This document shows, one piece after another, positions 3,837 to 60,800 of a stretch of DNA of 64,000 bases (position 1 is the first letter of the stretch; every line of letters begins with the position of its first letter). Both the position numbers and the translations under genes were made by a program. The stretch spans positions 3,960,211 through 4,024,210 of the forward strand of contig CAXIPT010000004.1 in assembly GCA_964030475.1 (NCBI GenBank), in the 5' to 3' direction. The notes beneath the pieces were generated by a model, which was not told the DNA's origin, did not search any database, and was given only the letters and a program-made list of their open reading frames with translations. The DNA comes from Tethya wilhelma (taxonomy: Eukaryota > Porifera > Demospongiae > Tethyida > Tethyidae).

Positions 3837-7156
<3,320 letters not shown>

Positions 7157-7475
7157 GTATGTTGAGAGAATATTAGTGATTGTATTTATTGTTCTTTTTA
7201 GACAGTTCATGTGCAGTCAAATCCTTTTCTTTGCTAAGCCCAAAAGCCTCAAATCAATCCCTCTCCTTCTTCCTGTTCCTGTGTGACGTGATCTAATTAC
7301 TGTTGTGGAAAGACTGTACTAAAGTTTTAGAGACATATCTATCATTATGTTTCAAAAAAACTTTGGACCTGTTCATTCGCCCTATGCACACCCAACAGCT
7401 ACAGGAATCACCTGTACATACAAACTAGCTTGCAACACCCTGGTGACTCACATAGCCACCCACACAGCCACCGGC

Positions 7476-7531: not shown

Positions 7532-7532
7532 N
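7532..7532. other. Single N, probable contig join
   Basis: One undetermined base between a CA repeat and a sequence identical to position 5355 onward, inside PARG intron 1. The sequence to its right restarts mid-intron, as expected if two overlapping contigs were placed side by side. Confidence 0.8.
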
Positions 7533-7662
7533 GCGCATCATATGTTATCGTTGTGGTTAACTTACATCTTGGTTGATTTATGACTTGCAACTACTATAAG
7601 ATTTTGCTTTTGTGGTACATATTTGATTTTGATTTTACTTGTAAATGTGATATGCCCTGCAG

Positions 7663-9722
<2,060 letters not shown>

Positions 9723-10149
9723 TGCTTCAATTTCAAGCTACATTTTGAAACAATAGAAAAGATCCACTCCTTCTCATAGTCTTTATCAGTTCATCACGTC
9801 AAGACTGAATGCATGCATATGTAAGCAGCATGAATTGAGTATTAAAAACAGTATTTTGTATGTAACATTACATGTATAGTAAAACTAGCAACCATAAAAG
9901 ATGCCATTTCTTGTTTACATGGATTTTGTGAGAGTAATTTTAGTTGCCATGGAAATACTAGGGGATAGCCACATCTATTGTGCTATAAACCTATTCGTGA
10001 ATCACATGATGAACTTCTACTACAAACAAAGATGCATAGTTTAATTGTGCCCAATATAGAATGTCCATTCAAGGAATAAGACTATTATTAGAGTAGGTTC
10101 AATTTTTGTGTTTAGTTCACAAAAAAGTTTCAGTCAATAACACAGGATC

Positions 10150-12249
10150 ATGGATAGACCACAAGAACATAAGTACAAGTTTGGTAGTGTTGAAATCTTT
10201 AAGGATCAACAGCTTGGACGTGGAGCTTATGGTGCTGTCTACAAGGCCAAATGTGGTGTGCTGCCTTGTGCTGCCAAGTTGATCAACCAACTTCTTATCG
10301 GTCCACCAGAACAAGTCCCATCTCAAGGCAAAGAACACCGACTGCCACTACAAAGATTTGAAGCTGAATGTCGTTTCCTCAGCCAGATCAAACACCCAAA
10401 CATTGTACAATATCTTGAAACATATCGCAATCAAGAAACAAATACACCTGTGCTTCTAATGGAGCTCATGGACGAGAGCCTCACCCACTTCTTAGAGACA
10501 CCAAGCAATCCAGTACTATTTCACACACAAGTCAACATTCTATATGACACAGCATTGGCCCTGGCATTTCTACACAGTAATGGAATAACACATCGAGATT
10601 TATCAAGCAATAACATCCTAATTGCTGGGAGTCGAGCTAAAGTCACAGACTTTGGAATGTCTAGATTTGCTGACGCAGCACCTCACCTTGCCTCAATGAC
10701 TCAGTGTCCAGGTACCCCAGCCTACATGCCTCCTGAAGCTCTCAGTAAGCCTCCAAAGTGTTCAGATAAACTGGACTGTTTCAGTTTTGGAGTCCTCACT
10801 GTCCAAACTATTACTCGAATATTCCCAGACCCAGCTGATCAACATAAAGACAGAGAGCTCTTTGATTCTGAGGGGAAGAAGCTTCAAGTGCGGGTTGCTA
10901 TTTCTGAACTGGAGCGTCGTCAATCTCACATCAGCCTCATCCCTGTGGCCCACCCTCTTAGACCAGTTGCAATAGACTGCCTAAATGACAAAGATGTGGA
11001 AAGACCTTCAGCTCATCAAATCTGTGAAAGGTTGGAACAAATTAAGACCACCCCTCTGTACGGTTCTAGTAATTGTCAAATCAGAGAAGGTAGAACCCCC
11101 CAAGCACAAACACAAGGAGAAACCATGTACGACAAGGAGAAACAACTGCAAGACCAACAACAAATAATTCAAGACCAACAAAGTGAAATTAGAGCAATAA
11201 AACAAGAAAATATGGAACTAAAACTAGAAATTGAACTTCTACAAACGGAAATGACCCAATTACTGCTTAAAGATGAAGCACAAACATTGATGCAAGACGG
11301 CAAAATGGAAAGCCAGCAACAACAATGTTCGTGGCCATTTGCTTTCAAACTAAAGTGGAGGTATGGTCCAAATGTGCTTAGTAGGATGAGGAGAGGATCA
11401 TGTACTGTTATTGGTAATAGCCTTTATATAAATCCCCATGATAGTCGCAATGTCTTTGAGTTCCAATGCGACAGTTTACAATGGTTTGCTTTCCCCCACA
11501 AGCTTTCGTATAACAATAGTACACTTACAAATATCAACGGGATTCTCACAACAGTAGGAGGTATAAGTTCTTTGTTTAGTGTCACAAACAAACTGATTAG
11601 CTACTCTGGCCAAGAATGGGTTGAACTATATCCTCCTATGCAAACAACAAGGTTTGAAACAGCAGTTCTCTCCACCGCCACCCATGTGGTTGTCATAGGC
11701 GGAAAGACATTCAGTGGTGAGCTGCTCAATACCACTGAAATACTCAATACTGAAACCAAAGTGTGGAGTGTTGCAAGCCCACTCCCTTTTTCTACACACT
11801 TAGCTACAATTACTCTGTGCAAAGAGACTATCTACTGTATGGGAGGACTGACTAGCACAGAATATAACTATAACAGTTCTGTTCGGTGTTGTCAACTGAA
11901 AGATCTTGTGGAGCATTCAGTACCTGTGAAAAAGTCTTTTTTTAGTACACGCTGTAACTATAATGCATGGCACAGACTTCCTGACCTGCCAGTTAGGCTT
12001 TCTACTTGTGTAACAGTTCAAGATTGTCTGTTAGCCATTGGAGGCACTAATGTACGAGATAAACATAGATCAAATGTTGTGTACATCTATGATCAAGAAA
12101 GGAACCAATGGGTTTTTTTCAACGCTATGACCTTTGCTAGATCAGCCTGCCTTGCTACTGTTCTTCCTGACAAGAAACTATTTGTTGTTGGAGGATACAT
12201 TGATAGTGGAAGAGAGACAGATGAAACTGAAATTGCTTCAATTGACTGA
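10150..12249 (+). CDS. Protein kinase with coiled coil and C-terminal kelch-like repeats
   Basis: Single-exon gene of 699 codons. The N-terminal ~300 residues are a protein kinase domain: glycine loop GRGAYGAVY (residues 23-31), catalytic Lys43 (CAAKL), HRDLSSNN with Asp150, DFG Asp167 and a PE motif (YMPPEAL); all key residues are present, so it should be active. The HRDLSSNN loop suggests the tyrosine-kinase-like (TKL) group of Ser/Thr/Tyr kinases. Residues ~326-376 are a Gln/Glu/Lys-rich heptad region (coiled coil). Residues ~400-699 hold several kelch-type blocks (VVVIGGKTF, TIYCMGGLTS, LLAIGGTN, LFVVGGY), probably a beta-propeller for substrate binding. No signal peptide or membrane segment, so likely cytosolic. 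An acceptor-like acacag precedes the ATG, so a 5' UTR intron is possible. No intron is seen in the coding region, unlike its neighbours. Substrate and pathway are unknown. Confidence 0.85.
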   Translation: MDRPQEHKYKFGSVEIFKDQQLGRGAYGAVYKAKCGVLPCAAKLINQLLIGPPEQVPSQGKEHRLPLQRFEAECRFLSQIKHPNIVQYLETYRNQETNTPVLLMELMDESLTHFLETPSNPVLFHTQVNILYDTALALAFLHSNGITHRDLSSNNILIAGSRAKVTDFGMSRFADAAPHLASMTQCPGTPAYMPPEALSKPPKCSDKLDCFSFGVLTVQTITRIFPDPADQHKDRELFDSEGKKLQVRVAISELERRQSHISLIPVAHPLRPVAIDCLNDKDVERPSAHQICERLEQIKTTPLYGSSNCQIREGRTPQAQTQGETMYDKEKQLQDQQQIIQDQQSEIRAIKQENMELKLEIELLQTEMTQLLLKDEAQTLMQDGKMESQQQQCSWPFAFKLKWRYGPNVLSRMRRGSCTVIGNSLYINPHDSRNVFEFQCDSLQWFAFPHKLSYNNSTLTNINGILTTVGGISSLFSVTNKLISYSGQEWVELYPPMQTTRFETAVLSTATHVVVIGGKTFSGELLNTTEILNTETKVWSVASPLPFSTHLATITLCKETIYCMGGLTSTEYNYNSSVRCCQLKDLVEHSVPVKKSFFSTRCNYNAWHRLPDLPVRLSTCVTVQDCLLAIGGTNVRDKHRSNVVYIYDQERNQWVFFNAMTFARSACLATVLPDKKLFVVGGYIDSGRETDETEIASID

Positions 12250-19058: not shown

Positions 19059-22000
19059 TTAATCATCTGTTGCTTGCTCAGGTTTGAAGTTTTCAATTTT
19101 GGCATTGAAATATTTCACTGGGTTCAGTAAAATTTTATCATCACTAAGTTTAAATTCTTTTCTAAAGAGAATAGTTTTCAAGAAAGTAATATTTTGATAC
19201 TGATTCTTCATATGGTCATCTAGAACATACTTTTTTGAGAACTGAAGAGTGAGAGCCATTAGGCCAGCGATGGCTGCAGCAGCACAAGAACTTCCACTGC
19301 TACACTCTGGGTCCTTTAGAGAGCCAACCACAGATGGGTGAACTATAGAATCACCAGGAGCATACACATCAACGTCATTTTGCAATTGATTAACAGTGTC
19401 CATCACATGCCCACATTCATTGTGGGCCCCTACACAAATCACTTTATTCAAATCCCGTGAAGGAAACTGGACAACTCCTTTGAATTTACCATAGTTACCA
19501 GCAGCAGTAACAATAACTACACCTAGATCAGTGAGACACTTTAGAAGATCTGAAATTGTATTTTGAGCATTGTCTTGAGGGTCATATAACATACCAAATG
19601 ACATAGAAATGACATCAGGTGCAAATCGATCTTGATTTTCTTTCAGTTCAAGTAGTTTTCTCAGTGCATTGATTATAGCTAGTTCACTGTAGGAGTTGCC
19701 CACTGAACAAATAAACAGAGTTGATTTAGGGGCAACTCCACATTTGACATCACCAAAAGCCCCTCCTCCAGCAACAAAAGCTGCCATTGTTCCATGACTG
19801 GCCTTGCTACCACCTGGTGTGTTCCACTGGTTATCATACTTGCCTTCCTCATCATAAAACCTACACCCGTTCAATCGACCTTCACGTTTAGCTGTTTCAA
19901 ATGCTTTGTGTTCAAGATTGATACCATTGTCTACTATAGCAATGACAATACCCTCACCATTGAATTCATCATGGATTTTGTCAAGATTCCAACATGTGCT
20001 AGCAGAAGTATCAGATGTTGGTACTGTTGCTGGTTCAAAATGTCTTATTGTGATGGCACCTAGGCATGTGAATATGTAAAATGTGTAAATTATGTGTGAC
20101 TGTGTACTAAACATATACCGTATACTGCTTAATTTTTGAGGTTACTTAATTTTCGCGGATTGCGCTATTGCAAATTTTCATTGAATAAGTTTCACAGATT
20201 GATATCATTCATGTACCATGTGCGCATGCATATGAACACGCAATTTTTCGTTGAACAATTTTCGCGAATAACATTCGATCCGCGAAAACCGCGAAAGTTA
20301 AGTACCACGAAAATTAAGCGGTATACGGTATAGCATAGAGTGTCACTCTGAAATCCTCAACAAAGTTTTGTTATCACAAAAACATTTATTATTGTCAAGC
20401 ATGGACAAGTACCGAGTCATGTGTTGTACAAGCAGAGTATGAGAACAACAACTAGTAGAGTCATAGAGAACCAAACACAGAATCAGATAGTCATGTAAAG
20501 GATCTCAAATGGCATATACACATCTGATTCAATAATGCATGTATACCATAAAATTATAATGAGCATTCGGGTCTTTATTACCCTGCATGTTTAAATGACC
20601 AGGTGTTTATTGTACTAATGGCAGTTGCTGACTTGGCATGAATTCGAGACAGGCAATATTAATTGAGACCCAAACCTTAGTATGGTTGTATATAGGTCTA
20701 TGTAAAGCTTAGTATGGTTGTAAGTATAGATTGGGCTAGCATTTCAACTAGCTATAGGGCCAGCCAAAGCTAGTCTGAGTCTGTTAAATTGTCAAACAGC
20801 TCCCTCTTTTGCATATTTCTGTGTTCAGGATGCTTCAATTTGCTGCATGGACATTGATACCTTAATTATATGGCGGAAAATTTTCTTTGGCACAAAATTT
20901 CTTAATTATAAAATTATATAGTTAAAAATGTGCCAGAACATTTTGTTAGTAATTTGAATTTCATATAAACACACAGCTAGCTAGCGTGTGCTCATAATTG
21001 GACACAATGTGGTTCAAGTTAAATTTTCACAGTTTTGATTTTGGATTTGAATGGCATAGAAAACTATATATATGTACAAAAATTTGTTGGTGCTATATAG
21101 CTCCCTGATATGCTTTAGAAGATCACAAGGAGTTTGAGTTTCTTAAGGGATGTACAACATAATATTATGTTTGTTAAAAGTGCATATTTTTATAATTATA
21201 ATTTAAATTGATTTTGATTTTTTTTCATTTTTGCTTTTAGAGCAATTAAACCATGGGACAACCTTCAACCAGCTATAGGCCTATATACAGGACAATTTAG
21301 AGTAGTAGATATAATTTATATATGAGGCAGTTTATTCAGTACAGATACAGATTGAGTGACAAATGAACATACCATTTTTGAGTCGAAGTTCAAACTTAAT
21401 AATTTTTTTGTGAAAGTAGCCTCGTGGTTTGAGTATAACTGTGTTGCTACCTCTTCTAAATTTTTCTCCAAACAATTTTGTCCTTAAAAAGACAATATCT
21501 CGATATTTCTTTCTTCTTTCTTGGTCAGTGACATACTTTTTTGAGAAGTGGAGAATAAGAGCAACTAGACCAGCAATGGCTGGAGCAGCACAAGAAGTAC
21601 CAGTGCTAAGTTCTGCAGTTTCTGAATCAAATGCGGAAGGGTGTGCTATATTACTTCCTGGAGCATAAACGTGAATGCCTTCTGAAGCATTGATCTCCAG
21701 CTTCTTTCCTTCCTTACTATGAGCACCAACACAAATCACTTTGTCAAACTCCCTGGCAGGAAATTGAACGCCCCCTTCAGAGTCTCCACAGTTACCAGCA
21801 GCAGCAATGATTACAACATCTAGTTCCTTGAGACGCCTTAGAAGTTCTTTCATTATGTTTTGATTCATATCATCAGGATCATACTTCAGTCCAAATGACA
21901 TAGATACCACATCTGGTGCAAATCGGTGATTACTTTCTTTCAGTTCAAGTAGTTTTCTCAGCGCATTGATTATAGCTAGTTCACTGTAGGAGTTACCCAC

Positions 22001-25000
22001 TGAACAAATTAGCAGAGTTGATTTAGGGGCAACTCCACATTTTAAATCACCAAAAGCCCCTCCTCCAGCAACAAAAGCTGCCATTGTTCCATGACTGGCC
22101 TTGCTACCACCTGGTGTGTTCCACTGGTTATCATACTTGCCTTCCTCATAATAAAACCTACACCCGTTCAAGCGTCCTTCACTTTTTCCAATCTTAAAAG
22201 CTTTGTGTGTAAGATTGATACCATTGTCAATAACTGCTATAACAATTCCTTCACCATTGATTTTGTCATGAATTTTGTTAAGGTCCCAACATGCACTAGC
22301 TGAAGTCACACAGTTTCCTGAAGTTGATGCTGGTTCAAAGCTTCGAATTAGACCAGATTTGGAGCTATTCTGTAAAATACAGTATAATTTAAACTGACAC
22401 GTGCAGTTACAATAATAATAATTCTGTCGATATTTTTATAGCTATACCCCATTCATGCAACCATACACAATTTGTTATACGTTAGCTAGCAATACAAGTA
22501 AAATGCTCACTGATACCTGATGCAATGGCCTTTTTGGTGATTCTGTAATCATGACTAATGTGTCATGATGCCTTGGAGATGGTAAAGGAAAATCTGATTC
22601 AAATGAGTTAGGTTTTCTAAAATCCTCTTTAACTTGTTTGAGTTTTACACCATTCTGAGCAGGTTCAGAATCATGAAGTTGTTCTCTTGCACCAGGAGAA
22701 ATCTTTGGTACCAATAATAATTATTAATCAAATAATATATTAAACAATAATTGTTAAGTATTAAACAGAAGCTTTATTGTTAATACTAAGTCTTACTTTT
22801 TCAGATTCTGGCTTCTGCTGGTCTTCCATTTTGTTGAGCAATTTCATTCGACTTTCTCTTGCATTTCTTAACTTGAACAATTCCTATAATATATGATTAT
22901 TAGTATACAATGTCATACAGCCCAACCATGATTATCATAAATAAGGTTCTTTACCTCAGAATGCAGCTGTAAATCACTTGTGAACTGATACATTTTGTCA
23001 TCAGAAATGGCACGATTTTGACTAAGGTGAATAAAATTGTAATCAAGACAGAAAGACTCTAAAGAAAAAACTGTGGATAGGTGATCACTTATAACATCTA
23101 CTCCATCATCATCAATTTCGTTTCCTTCCAGCATCCATTTTGTTAATAGATTTAGAGAGCAAGAGTGTCTTGAGAGTTCACCAAAGAGATAGCGAAGATC
23201 GTCAGATGTTATACTGCATCTGTTGCACGAAAGAAGCTGAAGCAATTGATGACACGATAGCATTATACAGGAGAGCACTTCTTTTGGAATATTACTTTTG
23301 TCGAGATAAATTTCAAGTGGCTGAACTGATAAACTTTTTTGAGAAGAAATTTCACGTTCAATTTGACAAAAAATTTCTGAGCATGTATGTGTAGTAGTCT
23401 GACAATTATTTTCTGATGCTAAAAAGTCACAGTTCATCATGTGTACTTTATGAAGTTGACCACTGGATATCATTTTTAGAATTGATGGTACTGACTGTAA
23501 TCCTAGTGGGTTTTTGTTTAGTACAAGTTCTTCCACTTTAAGTATTCCTGCTATAACAATATCTGACAAAGCAATTGTAGCATCACTTTGTAACTGATTA
23601 CCAGCGATACTAAGAGTGTCCAAGCAGCAGTGACCCTGCAGGCTCTGAATAAAAGCAATGACACCTTCATTACAAAGGTTAGTATTGTCTAGAATTATAG
23701 ATAAGCAAGCTTTATGTTTCTTCTGTTCAGTTTTGATGCTTGAGTAAGCTCTACCTATAGCTTGTGCTCCCAATACTCCTAGGAAGTTGTTGCACAAATT
23801 GAGATGGTATAACTTTTCACAATGACTAGAAATTGATGCCAGGAAAGAATTCCAAACACCGCCACAAATGTTTGGATCATTAACATTCAAAGTATTTACC
23901 AACTTCAAACAAGCCAAGTTGCTCAATATATCAGTTCGTATAGCATCTTCTAATGCTTGATAACCGTCTACTTCAAGATGATTGAAGGAGAGGTCTAAGA
24001 GGTGTAATCTACTACACTTATTGGCTTCAGACAATGACATTATTATGGAACTAACACCACTACTTCCTATGCTGTTATCACTTAAGTTTAACATATTAAG
24101 TTGATGAAAGGTAGATGCATCAGATCTGAATAGATAATTTACTCCATCATCTGTTATGTTGTTGTTACCAAGATCCAACGATTCCACTTGAGTAAGATTT
24201 GACTTGGCAAGGACTTGTGCTAAGGCTATCACGTCCTTGTCTCCAAGATTGCAATGTTTACAATCAATTGTCCACTTTGAATCAGAAGGAAGTTTCAATC
24301 TTGAAAGAACTTGAATTATTACAGAAAAATCATGTGAAGTCAATCTTGTATCACAAGCAATGTGACCAAGCGAACTTATCTCTTCAAATAGTCTGTTTAG
24401 TGTTAGAATCACATGTTCACCGATTTTACTTCTCCCAGACTCGTACACACAATGACAAAGTAGTTTTGAAACCTGAGATTTCTTAACAAAACATGACATT
24501 AGTTTTCCTGATACAACTATTTGCTGAATAAGATTTGGTTTTGAACTATTGCCACCAGTACGGCCATTGACTAGTTCAATATTACAACCAATACCAAAAT
24601 AGAATCGGAAGATCATACTAAATGGTGAAAGTTGACTGTATTCATGACATATCTCAAGCTGCTTATCTGGTGTCTGTCTAACAAGGTGAAGAGCAGCCAA
24701 ATATTCCTGAATGGTGAGGTGATAGAAACTAAATGAACGTCCCTCTCCAACACCTCCACTTAGTAAGGCATAAGATGATTGCAGCAATCCAAAGAAACTT
24801 AGAAGTTCATCAACTTCTGTAAATGCTTTGCCTGTTGTGAAATCTATAGACTCTTCAATTTCTTTGTAAGAAAAGATCAAATGTTTCTTCTCTATTGACC
24901 AAAATGCAAACTGACACAGTTTCCACCAGCCTGTCTGAAGAACTGATGGAATTTCTGCAAAGCTTGTTAAACTTTTTATAGTTTTACATTCTTTATATTT

Positions 25001-25951
25001 CTGCTTAACAGACTCAAGTTTACTCTCTTCACAGCTGTCGATAATTTCTGTATACTTTTTGTGTATGTTTCGAGCAATTGTAAGTAAGATGATTTTGGTG
25101 TACAATTCAGTTAAAGTACAAGGTAGAACTTCACCAAGCTCGCGAAATAAATGACAGACAATTGCACAGTTAAGAGGGATAACACAGATGCATTTAATCA
25201 ATGGATTATCATCTAGTTGTTTTAAGAGAAGAGATGCTCTTGGAGGAGTTAACTCAGATATAATGTACTCTTCAATATTGCTCTGATTGAAACCAACTAT
25301 CTCAAAAAATCTATCAAAACTCTGAGTTCTATGAAGTGTGTCAGATGCTGATGGTCTGGAAGTCAGAAGAACAGAAGCGTTTGGAAGTATGGTACATGTA
25401 ACAAGAAGTTTGTACAAAAATGATCCCTTTTGACGCTTTGATTCACTGAGTTCATTCCAACCATCACCTATAATTAAAACATCTTCACTTTTTCTAATTT
25501 CTCTGAGATTTTCATCTGAAAGATCACCATCTGCCATAAGTTTCAAAAATTCAGTACGAGATTTTATATTTGAAAGCTCTTGATCACAAAGATGCAAAAG
25601 AAGAACTAGTTTAAATTGTTGTAAAATTTCACCATCTTCTTCCCAATCTTGAGCAAGAAATTTACAGAATTTGGTTTTCCCAAACCCAGCATGGCCTTCT
25701 ACCAACACAGATCTGATCTGTTGCTCACCAGGCTTGCTTTTAAACAGGTCAGAGCATCTAATGCTATTTTTTTTCTTTTTTACTATGTGCTCGCTAGTAT
25801 CCTGAATCTCTCTTTGCTCACTGACATAAGCATCACACTCCACTAACTGAAGATCGAATATCTGCCTTCCTTGACGAGGAGGCCATTCTAATTCGGATTT
25901 TCCTCTTACATTGCGATAGCTTTCCCTTGCTAAATCAGCCAATAGTTCCAT
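19059..25951 (-). CDS. NACHT-LRR receptor fused to two subtilisin-like (S8) domains
   Basis: Predicted cytosolic NLR-type sensor with C-terminal serine protease modules. Exons in order: 25951-22955 (NACHT and LRR, 999 codons), 22883-22797, 22702-22517 (linkers), 22369-21373 (S8 domain a), 20059-19059 (S8 domain b, TAA stop). All joins have GT/AG sites and matching phase (0, 0, 0, 1), giving 1755 residues. NACHT: P-loop GHAGFGKT at residues 86-93, Walker B-like LIIGDGWNEL near 159-168; LRRs from ~560 to ~960 (LDLGNNNITDDG, LNLSDNSIGSSG type). S8a keeps Asp (VIDNG), His (SHGT), oxyanion Asn (AAGN) and Ser (TGTSCAAP). S8b keeps all four but reads SGSSCAAA at the serine. ATG at 25951 is chosen because the paralogue shares MELLAD there; no Death or CARD domain precedes it. 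The multi-domain chain is inferred from splice phase. The alternative is two genes, with the 3' subtilases separate or alternatively spliced. Confidence 0.7.
20116..20330. mobile_element. MITE, 215 bp, with TACCGTATAC ends
   Basis: Inverted ends TACCGTATACTGCTTAATTT (left) and AAATTAAGCGGTATACGGTA (right), with TA directly outside both ends, as in Tc1/mariner-type target sites. The interior includes cgcgaaaaccgcgaaagtta. It lies in the intron between the two subtilase exons of the first NLR gene. Confidence 0.75.
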
Positions 25952-26377: not shown

Positions 26378-26988
26378 NCACACACACACACACACGTACA
26401 CAAACCGCACAGTCACATGCCTTGCCTCATGAGGTGAGTATACACATTGCAATACTAATGCATTGCTTCTCTGAAAGGTGTTGTTTCCTCATGATTTTAA
26501 GGATTGTTTTTGATTGAGTAGACTGACAGTTGTACAATATCAGTGCATAATGCAACACAAGATCACACCTCCTTCCTTTTACAGAATGCCTCGACTCCTG
26601 TACGTGACCTAGCTGTAGAAGTTCGCAATCAGTTCTGTTCAGAGTCCAGTGAAAGTAGTAGTCAAAGAATCACCTGGGCATGATGTAGACTCTCCTATTT
26701 CATTAGAACTCGATCCCAAACTGAAACTCGTTGTAAATAGTTCATTCAGTTTATTTTTATTTTTAAGTTTTGTCAGGCTGTGCCTATTCAAGCACATATA
26801 CCGAAGTACCAGCCAAGGTTGAATCACTCACAAGTATGTAGATGTAAACATGGAGGTGAGTTTGAGATTTCTTGGAACGTGCATGTGTGAGAGCTATATA
26901 GTTGATGAGTTCTAGTAGATAAACGTCATTATCAGAGTTAATAATGTTATGATAAGCATTAACTTTACTTGTTCCATTTATAAGGTAA

Positions 26989-51800: not shown

Positions 51801-54800
51801 GTAGGTGATATTAAAATTATGAGGTATAATAATATGTGTTTTCCCATAGAGTTTTGCAGAATGGCAACTAGAATTTCAAAAAGAATTAAATTAATTTGGG
51901 GAAAAAGAGAGTTAGTAAATTTTTAAAATGTTATGCAAAAGATAACATCAATGACATGTAGATAATCAAAAGAAAGGTAAACACAAACATTAATTTTGGT
52001 TTGGGAATATTCTACCTAGCAAATTAAGTCACACTAACAATTATTTCAACTGAAAACTTAGCTATTGGTGTCAACTTACATGCACTAGTTGTTGGTATCA
52101 AGTACAACTAATTCTTTGCGTGTGAATGATTCACAATTATGTCCTAGTTATATCCACCAGTAATGGTTCCTTTAGCTCTATGGATGAGTGTGAAATGTCT
52201 GTACGTGTTTGGACTGATGGGGCAAAATACTCTCTCATTACTTTATGAGTTGAAAGATATTGTTTCATCTTAGTCTGTAGTTTCTCTTTCAAGTGTCTTC
52301 CTCTTCTTGTCTCGATGATCCTCAAGTAGAGATGGTAGAAGGTGATTAAGACAAACTGGCAGAAGGCAATGCTCACTGAAATGGTGCTCATTCTCTGGGG
52401 GTTGTTGTAGAAGTGTGCTCCCATTGTCAAGAGTCCGAGGTTTAGCATAAACGATACATCAGCTCCATTTGCCAGTGTTGACTCATAGACTCCTCCTACC
52501 ATCACAAGATAGGAGAAGACACAGAGCGAGGTTGTTCCAATAGCCATCAAGTTCAGTGAAGTATCCCCAGATACATTTAAAGAGAACACGAGGTAAAGTG
52601 CCACCCGGACTAGCAGCAGTACTCCAAACCAGTAGCAGTGCTTCTCTTTGAAGGGACCTGTGTAGGCATCAAAGAGAGGCTTCAGTTTACCAACCCAACG
52701 TAGCAGTCTGTGATGGTTGAATTTCCTTAACCACTGGATAAAGAGTAGACTAACAGTGTAAGGTATTGATAGACAGAGAAGCACAGTGAGGCCAGCAATG
52801 AAAAGAGGGATATGCTTTCCTTTAAGGTAGTCCACATTTCCATCATAAAGCCACACCCTTCTCCTGTAGCCATTGGGATAGGTGAGAGTAGTAGATTGAA
52901 AGATTGTGATGATGGTTCGAATAAGCTTTGCATAAGAAAGCAGGAAGAGTGTTGCTAGTACTTGTACAACATTGGGGCCACACAGCCTGGTAACAAAGAC
53001 ATAGCGACGACTGAGTGCAACGAGGATGATCATGATGGTCCAGATGTAGAGAGGGAAGATGAACTGAAGCCAGGTTTTAACATAGGCATCAAGTCCATTG
53101 TAGAAGCACACTTCAATACCAAGGTCAAGGTTCAACCAGGCAATGAAGGTACTGAGAAATGATCCTGATTTGAAGAATATTGTATTGTTGGCTCGAATGA
53201 TGTTGGCATATAAAACCAAGCCATTTAACATTCCAGTAGAGACATTGAGATATAAAGCTAGCATTAGAGCTATAAGTAGGACACCCATAATTCCAGCAAT
53301 TGGGACCAAAACCAATGTCCAGACACCAAAACACTCTTTACATTTTGATGTACCCAGGACATTGCTGAAGTTGCTTTGACATTCTCCACAGAGTATTCCT
53401 GATCGGTTAAAGTCACGCTGATCATTGGGATATTCCAGATTAAGTGATATTTGTGTCAATATCTTTTTGCAGTAGTCAAAAGGACAGTAGTCACTGATTA
53501 TAACTCCAGTATCATTGTCTAAATTGTGGATAAATGTAGCATTGATCCATTTTTCACTTGGTTTGGTCACTTCAAGAGTTTCAATGTCACACACAAATAT
53601 ATTGTTGTATTTCGCCAATACCTGATGGCATGTGCATTTCTTTGAGTCGACATCAAAGGAAAATCCAAGAGGACAATTCTTGGATGTAATAGTAACACTG
53701 AGCTGTTGCATTAGTAATTGGACTTCCTCCATTATAATTGACTCTGTAATATCTGGTTCATCATAATCCTGACTCAGTTTGAGCATTGTATAAAATTGTT
53801 CTAAGTTAGGAGTAGATACTTTGTCTACAGTCAGCCTCATCAGAACCTTTTCAGTGGGATATAGAGAGTGAAAATTGTATCGCACTGTTGTACATTGTCG
53901 TGTTACAATTTGACTATGCTGCCCCTCTCCTAATTTGACTTCTGAATGGCTATGTTTTGTGATTAATTGTGTGTGTACTACATAAGGTACAGTTCCAAAA
54001 CTTTCTCCTACTGCGACAGCATTAAAGGATACTGTTTTCCCTGGATAGGTTTCTATTGCATGGTTAATTGTTGTACAGTTTGGCACATTTGGTGTGTCTT
54101 GGCTATCACATAAGCAAACTCGTACTGGGTTAGAAGCGACCACAGATAAATCATCTGGATTGTTAGCTTGATCGAAACTGAACTGATCTTGAAGAGCAGT
54201 GTACATATTCCATCCACCATAAATAGCACTACCAGCAATTTCAGCTACATTGTTGATAAAAGAAAATTTTGATTGGTCAGATCGTATATGAAAGGTCCGC
54301 ATGTATGAATAAAGGGGGCCTTCAGCTGGAGTAAAATAAGTTGAGTCATCAATGAATACTGCTCCACCTTTTTGTGATGCATAGTTGTTCTGAAAAACAA
54401 CTGATTCTGAATTACGATGACATTGCATAATGTGATGAATAGAAAAACGTAAATAATAATCCTCAAAGAATTGTCCAGAACAAACCTGTACTTGTGATTT
54501 AGAATAGAGAGACATTGCTCCACCATTGACACCAATGTTACCATCAAAAAGTAGAGTACTGTTGTTAAATAACCCAAGTTTTGAATTGTATAGCAGCAAA
54601 GCACTTGTTGTGGCAGTATTGTTCCTAAAGACTACACTACTGTTGAACAACACAACATAAGAGTTTTCAACTCCCAATATGCTGCCATCTTGTGCAACAT
54701 TACTTGAACATACATTATTTTCAAATATTGTCGTAGTCTTTTGACTAAATATTAGATAGCTGTTTGCCAAAAGTGATATGCCCACATTGTTACTTTTGAA

Positions 54801-57800
54801 GACAGACTTTCCATGAACAAAGAGGATTGAACTGTTTGTTGCAACTATTGCCCCTCGTAATAATAAGCAGTTCTTAACAGTAATAGCTTCAATTTTGGCC
54901 CTATCAATGTCACGAAAAGTCAATACACCTGCGCAATTTGAACATTTAACTCCAGTAAACACTACTCTTGTGAAGTGAATAAGTTTCTTTGTTCGATCTA
55001 ATAACTTTCCTTCTGGGCTAGTGGGTAGGTAAACAATCACTGGTCCGATAAAGTTACAGTCTTCTACCTTTGTATACACTTTTCCAGCTAGTTCTATTTT
55101 GACTCCATTATGACCCTTGTTTTCTCCTTCTGACAGCGTGGTCCATGGTCTGGCTGAAATGATGTTATCTAAGCTAGCTTTTGATACTACTGTGCTACGG
55201 CTTCTTAGATGAAGGCCTAGGTTGTGTGCACGATCTTTATTGTGTATTGTAAGGTTGTGAATTAGAACTTCAAATCTATAGTCCACCTCTGTGTTTAAGT
55301 CAATCACAAGACCACCTGTGTATTCGAATGGCCAACTCTCATCTCTGTTATTCCTAAACTTTGTTCCTGAAATCTCAAGATGAATAAATGTGATTACATC
55401 TTTACGGAGCCTTAGCCTGGTCAAGTTGTTAAGTTTAGAAATAATCATACAGCCTCTCCAATTGTAGGAAAATTCAGAATTTACTATACTGACATTGTGA
55501 TACACTTGATGCAATAAGAGACCAACCCCAGTACTGTTGTACACTTCAACATTCTCCATTGATATATGTGACGAATTGGTAATTTTGATGCAAGTCATGT
55601 AATAGCGGTCAAATACACTATTGTCCAGCCGGATAGAGATCTTTTCACCATATGCTGTGCAGCCATGTATTTTTAATCCCATGAATCGTACTCCGGTAGC
55701 ATTTTGTAGATTTATGTTGTATAATGAATTGTTTGAGCACCGTATTATTGCTATACTTTGAAGATCTATGTCTGAATATCCAATGATTTCAAAATTAATA
55801 ATGTTTTCAATGGTGAGTGAACCATTAGCTGTGATGTTGTGCACTCCTGGTAATAGGACTAGTGTGCTGTTCGATGTGAAGTTGTGCGATGTACTCAATT
55901 CTTGTAATGTTGAGCATTGCGCTTCATATGAAGGGCAACCCACAGACTCGCTATCAAGTGGAGTTGTCGGAAGAGCATAGACAAAGGTTGTAGTTTCAAC
56001 TGCCTTCACAAATTGCAAAGCTATTAGCAGGATGCCACTGAACAGCAAGACCCTTCTCAAGTCCCCCATGTTATTCTTTACTTCATGAAAAATATATTTT
56101 CAGACTCTGATGTACTAAAGTAGTTGAGGAAGGATAAATGCTTTTAAAGAGTGTATTATTAATTTAATAGATGGGAATTTGCAATTTTTCAACATCATGT
56201 ATTTGGGAAATTCAAACTTTACTTTTGCGTACAGCTAGATTATGGTTGGGAGTTACAGTTTATCAATAACAGAAGTAGTATGTATAGTATGTTATGTTTA
56301 CTTTCCAAAGTCTTTACCATGGTATATACAATCAAACTTCAAAGTCTTATAAAAGAATTTAAATTATTTGGGGAAAAATAGAGTTAGTAAATCAAAGAAT
56401 TGCTATTCAAAGCAATAATTATGTCAACATCATGTGTATAGATTTAATTACAAGAGAACAAACTAATATGTTGAACTTCAATCTAGTTTGCTCAAGTAAC
56501 TTACTAGATACTCAGTATATATAGTATTATTATAAGCTTATCAGTAGCTATTTGCATAAATCTTAGGCTTATCTATTCTAAGACTTATAGCTAATACTGT
56601 AAGTCTTTGTGTGTACAATGATTGTTGTCCTTTTTTGTGTCCTAGCTAGTTATGTCCACCAGTAATGCTTCCTTTAGCTCTATGGATGAGTGTGAAATGT
56701 CTGTACGTGTTTGAACTGGTGGGGCAAAATACTCTCTTAATACTTTATGAGTTGAAAAGTATTGTTTCATCTTAGTCTGTAGTTTCTCTTTCAAGTGTCT
56801 TCCTCTTCTTGTCTCGATCATCCTCAAGTAGAGATGGTAGAAGGTGATTAAGACAAACTGGCAGAAGGCAATGCTCACTAAATTAGTACTCATTCTTTGT
56901 GGGTCGTCGTAGAAGTGTGCTCCCATTGTCAAGAGTCCAAGGTTTAACATAAACGATACATCAGCTCCATTTGCCAGTGTTGACTCATAGACTCCTCCTA
57001 CCATCACAAGATAGGAGAAGACACACAGTGAGGTTGTTCCAATAGCCATCAGGTTCAGTGAAGTGTCCCCAGATACATTTAGAGAGAACACGAGGTAAAG
57101 AGCCACTTGGACAAGCAGCAGTACTCCAAACCAGTAGCAATGTTTCTCTTTGAAGGGACCTGTGTAGGCATCAAAGAGAGGCTTCAGTTTACCAACCCAA
57201 CGTAGCAGTCTGTGATGGTTGTACTTCCTTAGCCACTGGATGAAGAGTAGACTAACAGTGTAGGGTATTGACAGACAGAGAAGCACTGTGAGGCCAGCAA
57301 TGAAAAGAGGGATATGCTTTCCTTTGAGGTAGTCCACATTTCCATCATAAAGCCACACCCTTCTCCTGTAGCCATCAGGATAGGTGAGAGTAGCGGATTG
57401 AAAGATTGTGATGATGGTTCGAATGAGCTTTGCATAAGAGAGCAGGAAGAGTGTTGCTAGTACTTGTACAACATTGGAGCCACACAGCCTGGTAACAAAG
57501 ACATAGCGACGACTGAGTGCAATGAGGATGATCATGATGGTCCAGATGTAAAGAGGAAACATGAACTGAAGCCAGGTCTTGACATAGGCATCAAGACCAT
57601 TGTAGAAACACATTTTAATACCAAGGTCAAGGTTTAACCAGGCAATGAAGGTACTGAGAAATGAGCCTGATTTGAAGAATATTGTATTGTTGGCTCGAAT
57701 GATGTTAGCGTACAAAACTAAACCATTTAGCATTCCAGTAGAGACATTGAAATTTAAAGCTAGCATAACAGCTATAAGAAGAATACCCATGGTTGCAGTG

Positions 57801-60800
57801 ATCGGAACAAGCATTAATCCCCACCAACTGGAGCACTTCTTACATTTTGATGTTCCCAAAACTTGACTAAAGTTTGTTCGACATCCTCCACAAAGTGCTC
57901 CAGATCGATTGAAGTCACACTGATCATCAGGGCACTCTAGGTCAACGAATAGGTGTGATAAACTTTTGTTGCAGTAATCAAATGGACAGTGATCATTCAT
58001 GACAACTCCTGGACAGTTGCTATTGTCTATGTTGTTGTTAAAAGTTGCGTTTATCCATTTTTTGCTCGGTTTAATGATTCTAAATGTTTCCATGCTACAG
58101 TCAATGCCATATATTGCCAATAGTGGGTGACAGGTACATTTCTTTGAGGTTAAATCAATGCAAAACCCAGGCGGACACTTTCCGAGAGTAACCTTTATGT
58201 CCAACTGTTGCATCAAGATGCTAATTTGAGCATAATAGGCATCAAGTGTTAAGGATTCATTAGGAAATCTTTCTTACATAATTTGGTTTAAATCGGGTGT
58301 GTTGACTCTGTCAACAGTCAGTCGTAATGTTTCAGTGAGATTTTCTACAGAATAGAAAGTGTATTGTAAAGTTGTACATTGTTTTCTCACAACCTGACTG
58401 TACTGTTCTTCACTTAAAATAGTCGCAGACATGTTAACGTTGCTACTGTGATTGCCAATGAATTTGGTGTGTACCACAGAAGGTACAGTTCCAAAGCTTT
58501 CTCCAACTGCTACAGCATCAATTGACACACTTTTCCCTGGATATGTCCTCACTTTATGCTGTGTTATTGTACAGTTCAGCACTTTTGGTGTGTCTTGGCT
58601 ACATAAGCAAACACGTACTGGGTTAGAAGCTACCACAGATAAATCATGTGGATTGTTAGCTTGATCGAAAATGAACACATCTTGACGAGCAGTGTACATA
58701 TTCCAGCCACCATAAATAGCACTACCAGCAACTTGAGCTGTGTTGTTGAGGAAGCAAAATTTTGCATCATTTGGCTTTATCGAATCTACATACGATGAAA
58801 CTGATTGTGTTGGACTATAAGTAGAATCATCTATGAACATTGCACCTCCTCTATCTGATGCATGGTTCTTGTCAAACCTGAGCACACAGTTAGGTTCAAT
58901 ATTGCTAGTGCACATGTTTAGACGGAAATAAAGTAAGTATTTCATAATATATCCTGTGCAAATCCATAATTGTGATCCAGAGTAAAGAGACATTGCTCCA
59001 CCCTTATCACCTGAGTTACCATCAAATACTAAACTGCTATATTTTCCATATATTGTAAGTTTGGAGTTGTGTAACATCAGGGCACTTTTTGTTGCAATAT
59101 TGTTCTTGAAAATTACACTGCCATTCAGTATTGCAACTCTTGACTTTTCACGGACATCCAGTATGCTACAGTCTTGAAAAATAGATCTCAAGCACGAGTT
59201 ATTTTCAAAAGTTAGAACACTGTGTTCACTAATATTTAGATTACTTTCTCCTCTGATAACCAAGCCAGCATTGTTTCCTTTAATGACTGATTCTCCAAAC
59301 ATTGTGAGATAACTCTTGGTTTCACTAAGTATTGCTCCCTCTCCTGATGTGCTGTTTTCAATAGTTATGTTTTGTAATTGGCCCTGCCTAATTCCCCAAA
59401 AGCCCATTGCTGCACATGGACATTGAACATCATGAAATTTTATGTTACTAAACTGCACAACTGTTAGATTCTTTGTTTGCTTATTGCAAACTTCATCTGA
59501 TTCACTATGAGTTGTTGAAACACATGATTGGTAACCTGTAAATTGACCCTCTTCTACCAATGTATGCATGCATCCTGAAGTTTTTATGAAGAATCCAAAA
59601 TAGCGTATATTTTCACAATCTGTCATTCTCAAAGTCTCAGCTTTAGCATTAAAAATCAAGTTTTGTATTTTTAGTTGTGATGCTACGATAGTACTTATCA
59701 AGTATATGCCTACATTGCGTATATTGTTTAGAGTAACATTGTCTATATGGACCCTAAATCCTCGGTTCACCAATGAATTTAGGTTTATGTAGATTTCTCT
59801 GTGGTTTAAAGCTCGATCAAAAATGGACCTGCCAAAAAGTTTGTTGTCCCTGAAGAGTGAGTCAGTAATTTCAAAACGGATGAATTTTGTTTCATTCTTG
59901 GAGTTTGTGGTATCTTTCATTTGAGAGATTACTATTAAGCTTTGAATGTTGTATGCAAACTCACAATCTATAACCCTCACATTATTGTATACAGAGCGCA
60001 ATAGAAAAGCCGCTCCTCTACTATGGTGTACTTTAATATTCTTTATTGTAATGATCGATGAATCCTCAATTTTGATGGTGACTTTTGATGGATTCATGTA
60101 AGTGTTATACGTCAAATACGACAAAAACACACCAGCAACTAGTCCTAGATATCTTGTACTACTACCACTACAGCCATGCATCTCAAATCCCATTAGCATC
60201 AGTCCAGTAATATTTTCTAGAACAATATCAAATGCCAAAGAGTTTGAACACTTTATTACTGGTGACACTTGCCTTGATTCATATTCTGAAGCTTCTCCAA
60301 TGATTGCAACGCTTGTGAGATTTCCAATAATGAGAGAAGTGTTCCTTGTAATGTTATGTACTCCAGGCAGCAGTATGAGTGTTGTGTTTGAAGAAAAGTT
60401 GTAAGTTTCACTAATCTCCTGTAGCGTGTAAAACTGACTTGAAGACTCACAAAAAGTGTTGATTGAACCACCATTTCTGCTGAATGGGTTTGTGGGAAAG
60501 ACATAAATAGCTGTTGTACTTGCAAGTCCCAATGTAGAGCAGAAGTGCAGTATCATGAAGTTCAACATAAGATTATTTTTCTTTGCCATGGTATAATAGG
60601 ATTATAGAGTTCGAAGCTTCTGAAATTATGTTAATTGTTAACAAATGCTTGAACCTATTATAGTACACAAACCATGATAAATTTTGTGCAGCTCATAAAA
60701 TGGTTTTTTGTTTCAATTTAGTTTCAGTTAGAGTTAGTCAACATTGACAATACAAAATAGGTGTATTTATTAAAATTATAGGATTTGTATTCCAAAAGTT

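Follow-up and report, generated by a model that had tools for sequence, protein, structure and literature searches.

A Tethya wilhelma gene likely to join a NACHT-LRR receptor to two C-terminal subtilase domains

The window is a stretch of 64,000 nucleotides of Tethya wilhelma DNA. It raises the question of whether a NACHT-LRR exon and two subtilisin-like (S8) protease exons on the same strand encode a single protein. The gene model (25951-19059) consists of five minus-strand exons that yield 1755 residues and a stop codon in one frame. All four junctions have GT/AG ends, and the exon entry phases are 0, 0, 0, 0 and 1. This model agrees with the initial annotation, which had described a NACHT-LRR exon, two linkers and two S8 exons with matching splice ends and phases and the same length. 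The features of the window gene are as follows.

25951-22955, minus strand: exon 1, 999 amino acids, NACHT, helical domains and LRR; the model begins at its ATG, and further upstream exons are possible
22883-22797, minus strand: exon 2, linker of 29 amino acids, phase 0
22702-22517, minus strand: exon 3, linker of 62 amino acids, phase 0
22369-21373, minus strand: exon 4, subtilase S8a, entry phase 0, with a phase-1 donor at 21372
22228-22226 (Asp), 22093-22091 (His), 21793-21791 (Asn) and 21595-21593 (Ser), minus strand: S8a active site in exon 4
20059-19059, minus strand: exon 5, subtilase S8b and stop codon, phase-1 entry

Pfam matches identify the domains. NACHT in exon 1 (PF05729) scores 63.8 bits against a cut-off of 26.7 (E 2.3e-17), and an LRR lies C-terminal to it (LRR_6, residues 589-604, 28.1 bits against a cut-off of 23.4, E 1.7e-6). 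Both protease exons match Peptidase_S8 (PF00082), S8a with 92.4 bits (E 4e-26) and S8b with 91.6 bits (E 7e-26). These domain matches are far beyond chance. The closest solved structures to exon 1 by sequence are NLRP3 and NLRP1. S8a is predicted to adopt the subtilisin fold, and it is 22% identical to the bacterial intracellular subtilisin 2xrm (VIA-align 2). Alignment confirmed the earlier observation that both S8 domains keep the Asp/His/Ser triad and the oxyanion Asn (D/H/N/S). A Pfam scan of exon 1 as modelled gave no CARD, Death or PYD match at E 0.1. A FIIND match was also absent from exon 1, the linkers lying outside that scan. With PADLOC, S8a matched only a generic model for subtilases and the NACHT exon had no match.

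We consider it probable that the gene encodes a single intracellular NLR-type receptor, NACHT-LRR-linker-S8a-S8b, with the C-terminal subtilases as effectors. The LRR/NACHT part would keep the receptor inactive in the cytosol, and a trigger would lead NACHT to oligomerise. The clustered C-terminal subtilases would then begin to cut themselves or substrates involved in cell death or signalling. Gasdermin (PF04598), a candidate substrate, had no match in the genome, and the control genomes were also without a match.

The initial annotation had drawn the fusion from splice phase. Of the 30 direct GT/YAG donor/acceptor pairs between the point where the LRR frame ends and the point where the first S8 frame begins, 11 are phase-compatible. 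Phase agreement by itself is poor evidence of joining, so the case depends on comparison with other loci. An alternative, which we judge unlikely, is that there are two genes: the NLR stops within its LRR exon or its linkers, and S8a-S8b forms an independent tandem protease gene that has a start of its own. An AATAAA at 22778, between the read-through stop of exon 1 and S8a, fits such a division; three more, between the read-through stop of S8a and S8b, count against the joined receptor. Against it, the window S8a exon has no ATG before the catalytic Asp, and it begins 147 nt past linker exon 3, whose homologue belongs to a neighbouring NLR gene. This neighbour, NLR#2, is located upstream of the window gene on the same strand and comprises the following features.

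33690-27247, minus strand: NLR#2, tandem NLR copy, 8-exon model, 1383 amino acids, all phases agree
33690-30697, minus strand: NACHT-LRR exon, 70% identical to the window NACHT-LRR exon (dS 0.54, dN/dS 0.34)
30568-30461, minus strand: counterpart of window exon 2 (DNA block 22886-22684 / 30571-30373, E 2.7e-5; protein alone E 0.52)
30400-30172, minus strand: MIB_HERC2 exon (E 1.2e-19), absent from the window gene
29883-29761, minus strand: counterpart of the 3' half of window exon 3 (tblastn E 5.9e-7; DNA E 6.8e-14)
29691-29565, minus strand: S8 5' exon stub, with homology to the beginning of window exon 4 (tblastn 3e-6)
28753-28646, minus strand: short exon, the least certain of the model
27614-27247, minus strand: Death-domain exon, the last, ending in a stop

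The order in NLR#2 is NACHT-LRR, linker, MIB_HERC2, linkers, S8 5' stub, short exon and Death with the stop. The two genes share DNA blocks over the end of the LRR exon, over the two linker exons and over the S8 5' exon. The exon-1 donor, the linker boundaries and this S8 exon are all retained in NLR#2, with order and frame unchanged. The S8 5' stub aligns as DNA over 22351-22263 and 29658-29570 (73%, E 1e-11), and a second segment aligns over 22283-22212 and 28905-28836 (E 0.004). Linker codons compared between the two genes show pS 0.51 against pN 0.25 (Fisher p 0.0035, 59 codons). Taken separately, linker 1 gives p 0.018 and linker 3 gives p 0.18, which is no significant constraint and counts against the joined receptor. 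The homologous blocks and the linker codon constraint indicate that the order NLR-linkers-S8 is most likely older than the tandem duplication, and this shared order argues against two genes. NLR#2 has since lost its S8 body.

The Death call for the last exon of NLR#2 is based on its similarity to the Death exon of another S8 locus, L048 (31% identity, E 2e-12), and on its fold. The AlphaFold model has a pLDDT of 86.3, and Foldseek lists death domains in all of its first 35 rows, the best with E 0.011 and none at 0.001. With Pfam alone the E value is 0.15. Use of this exon as the N terminus of the window gene is disfavoured, given its terminal stop and an intervening single-N join. L042, L044 and L045 likewise have a MIB_HERC2 exon after the LRR exon; in L043 it was not found. 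In those three loci the NACHT-LRR exons are followed by MIB_HERC2 and ZZ-like exons as C-terminal domain chains of NLRs, and L042 also has a Death-like exon (Pfam E 0.014).

The loss of the S8 body in NLR#2 and the single-N joins near the window gene bear on a further explanation, that the locus is decayed or mis-assembled and has no working product. The window gene has five open exons and an interior free of N, the nearest N being at 26378, upstream of the gene. The dN/dS values are 0.28-0.39 for the NACHT and S8 exons together and 0.30-0.39 for S8 alone, indicating that these exons are under constraint. We regard decay or mis-assembly as very improbable.

The splice sites of the S8 exons were compared across loci. 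Eight S8 exons (window S8a, L037 S8a, L046, L047, L048, L050, L051 and L052) have a phase-0 YAG acceptor 24-27 nt upstream of the S8 motif, and L030, L031 and L035 have it 33 nt upstream. It is at 18 nt in L029, at 42 nt in the tandem copy and only at 12 nt in L026. The acceptor is absent from L013 and L016, the two ANK-S8 frames scored; L027, L028 and L049 were left out of the scoring. Among the donors modelled, only the phase-1 donor of S8a fits the phase-1 acceptor of S8b. Two comparisons support the joining of the window exons: NLR#2 has homologous boundaries for its exons, and many loci retain a phase-0 acceptor in front of the S8 exon. The fusion of the NACHT-LRR part to the S8 pair is likely. 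The proposal of the initial annotation stands in this form, and splice phase does not suffice to establish it.

A second locus has the same order as the window gene.

C4:4322985-4331847, all on one strand: L037, NACHT-LRR, S8, S8

The S8a phase-1 donor and the S8b phase-1 acceptor are both conserved in L037, at the same place and in the same phase as in the window. The S8a-S8b intron is 1313 nt long in the window gene and 624 nt in L037, and the alignable part is 61% identical. In the tree, S8a groups with S8a and S8b with S8b across the two loci, with support of 100 each. The S8 pair has dS values of 0.29 and 0.19 between the loci, far younger than the NACHT exons at dS 1.9, which is near saturation. 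These values indicate that the receptor part and the S8 pair have different histories, the pair having moved or undergone conversion on its own. They rule out L037 as proof of a whole-gene duplication. The difference in age between NACHT and the S8 pair also favors two genes, and the lack of a match to the window linkers in L037 counts against the joined receptor. In addition, L037 has a plausible S8 start exon with an ATG (4081-4025), preceded by an in-frame stop, that splices to S8a in phase 0. A separate 5' exon for the subtilases, which the initial annotation had set against the fusion, has a candidate at this paralogous locus. On the other side, nothing in the window or at the other loci searched matches this exon convincingly (best E 0.5).

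Single-frame fusions of NACHT-LRR to S8 also occur in other sources, which argues against two genes and for the joined receptor. A first protein search (15 rows) identified one NACHT-LRR-S8 protein, P0001. A search with the S8 domain of P0001 gave 14 rows including P0001 itself, and in 13 of them (P0001 and P0053-P0064) NACHT is followed by S8 in one frame. No NACHT is listed for the 14th, P0065. NACHT and S8 are above the Pfam cut-offs in all 13 proteins, and LRR is found in 13/13 (E 2e-4 or better) and above the cut-off in 10/13. P0054 has two S8 domains in one frame. Protein P0037 is a Death-S8 combination in a single frame. The 13 NACHT-LRR-S8 predicted proteins presumably come from animals. 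Their occurrence in one open frame indicates that the layout is not confined to the window gene. A search of genome contigs for bacterial relatives of NACHT-LRR-S8, with both patterns from the NACHT part, gave at least 80 loci; the 80 listed match only within query residues 137-575, and bacterial NACHT-S8 proteins may exist. A search of viral contigs gave 10 loci with 24-31% identity.

P0001 is 29% identical to the window gene in S8 and 24% in NACHT. The 13 proteins resemble the window gene in having NACHT-LRR and then S8 in a single frame. They differ in a hydrophobic stretch before S8, present in 13/13 (mean hydropathy 1.58-3.09), whereas the window linkers have none (0.15). An alignment of the N termini of 11/13 looks Death-like when its profile is compared with those of six Death segments (probability 91.5 in hhalign). 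Several start with a hydrophobic segment resembling a signal peptide, and these proteins are possibly membrane-bound protease receptors. The AU test rejects a single S8 clade for the window group and P0001/P0053-P0064 (p 2.7e-7, with 7 of these 13 proteins included in the tree). A single origin of both groups is ruled out for the S8 part. The joining of NACHT-LRR to S8 thus appears to have arisen at least twice, unless S8 units were exchanged later.

The PF00082 search of the genome gave 53 matches. Proximity was evaluated for 35 S8 places and 110 NACHT places (102 + 8 rows), both lower bounds with some rows from the same gene. Among the matches listed, 4/35 S8 places, at two loci, are within 7 kb of a NACHT and the next nearest is 45 kb away, a scarcity that counts against the joined receptor. 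ANK and S8 share a single open frame at six S8 loci (L013, L015, L016, L018, L024 and L019), one of which continues into Roc/COR. Upstream modules were surveyed at 13 other S8 loci with several kb of upstream sequence (window, L037, L029, L030, L031, L035 and L046-L052); L026-L028, with 1.5 kb flanks, are outside this survey. A same-strand module is present at 10 of the 13: NACHT-LRR at two, Roc/COR at five, ANK-Roc-Death at two (L048, L050) and ANK at one (L051). Roc/COR is above the Pfam cut-offs in L029 and L052 and below them in L030 (E 6e-6), L046 (E 3e-7) and L047 (E 0.0045). We did not find a module for L031, L035 or L049 within several kb upstream on the same strand. The modules at these loci are presumably spliced to S8. 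The window gene thus appears as one case of a wider S8 family behind ANK, Roc/COR and Death modules. At L034 (532-3914), ANK-Death is followed on one strand by a PNP_UDP phosphorylase domain, and a partial S8 lies downstream.

The S8 domains could also be fused as bait, an integrated decoy for foreign proteases or inhibitors, instead of acting as effectors. The catalytic residues speak to this point. Among 66 aligned S8 rows, 58 have D/H/N/S, two have D/Q/N/S, one (P0030) has D/G/N/A and the remaining five, being fragments, have a gap at one of the sites. The two with Gln for the catalytic His, which speak for a decoy, are L037 S8b (77-1060) and L022; both are pseudo-protease candidates. In contrast, D/H/N/S is complete in 27/29 S8 domains of this genome and in 14/14 S8 domains of the 13 NACHT-LRR-S8 proteins. 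These counts and the S8 dN/dS range make a decoy improbable.

With the subtilases as effectors, the C terminus of the receptor would be an exchangeable slot: the neighbor has Death, the window gene has two proteases, and the S8 exon is found elsewhere behind ANK and Roc/COR. A broader proposal, to which we give an even chance, is a caspase-independent immune design in some animals. A subtilase exon cassette would serve as a plug-in C-terminal effector, joined at least twice to NACHT-LRR and also to ANK and Roc/COR, and the activated receptor would be the executing protease. The initial annotation had suggested a new receptor-protease design, possibly activated by ligand. C-terminal subtilases in an animal NLR remain the best reading; the claim narrows in view of the 13 other proteins, the ANK, Roc/COR and Death partners and the fungal S8-NLRs.

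The remainder of the window and genome has several other features. Identical 1821-base blocks (5355-7175 and 7533-9353) flank a single N at 7532 and are probably a leftover assembly overlap. A protein kinase and Kelch repeats share a single frame at 10144-12246. Long paralogous minus-strand frames at 52140-60601 are multi-membrane by eye; a scan of two of them gave a weak match to Beta_helix (E 0.003) for one and no match for the other. Wnt domains have 9 matches in the genome and 0 in 14 prokaryote controls, which points to an animal. In the C1 loci L038-L041 (four out of 89 matches) the Cys motif is the ordinary one, not the silicatein type that would mark a sponge.

Animal NLRs are known to recruit caspases or kinases via adaptor domains. 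The C-terminal effector of NLRP1 and CARD8 is a CARD that is freed through FIIND. The window gene is similar in placing the effector at the receptor C terminus, but its exon 1 is without a FIIND match. S8a resembles bacterial intracellular subtilisins, for example 7xr8, 2xrm and 2wv7, which are proteases not known to be attached to a receptor. A literature search of the accessible main texts found no animal NLR with S8. In the sponge Dysidea avara the NACHT-LRR genes are clustered, and the legend to Figure 2 of the paper on them names CASc (caspase) and COR among the additional domains; the words 'peptidase', 'subtil' and 'protease' are absent from its main text as available (PMC12909245). Caspase, PNPase and HD are given as possible enzymatic effectors in the available text on Amphimedon (PMC8195603).

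Fusions of proteases to NACHT proteins in fungi, as mentioned in the initial annotation, are described: in the available accounts a NOD module is fused to Peptidase_S8 as the N-terminal module, with no LRR found (PMC12881547, PMC4986451). The same literature, as available, reports protease domains also joined to ANK, WD40 or TPR repeats, and the serine protease HET-Q2 cleaving the gasdermin HET-Q1 (PMC12881547, PMC4986451, PMC12258605). Compared with the fungal S8-NLRs described there, the window S8 domains are C-terminal rather than N-terminal, follow NACHT and LRR, occur in tandem and belong to an animal. If the proposed receptor is correct, its own C-terminal serine protease would make it detector and executor in one protein. 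It would also parallel the gasdermin-linked fungal S8-NLRs, suggesting repeated invention of NLRs with protease effectors. The S8 exon, present behind several receptor types, is in addition a specific example of effectors exchanged through exon shuffling.
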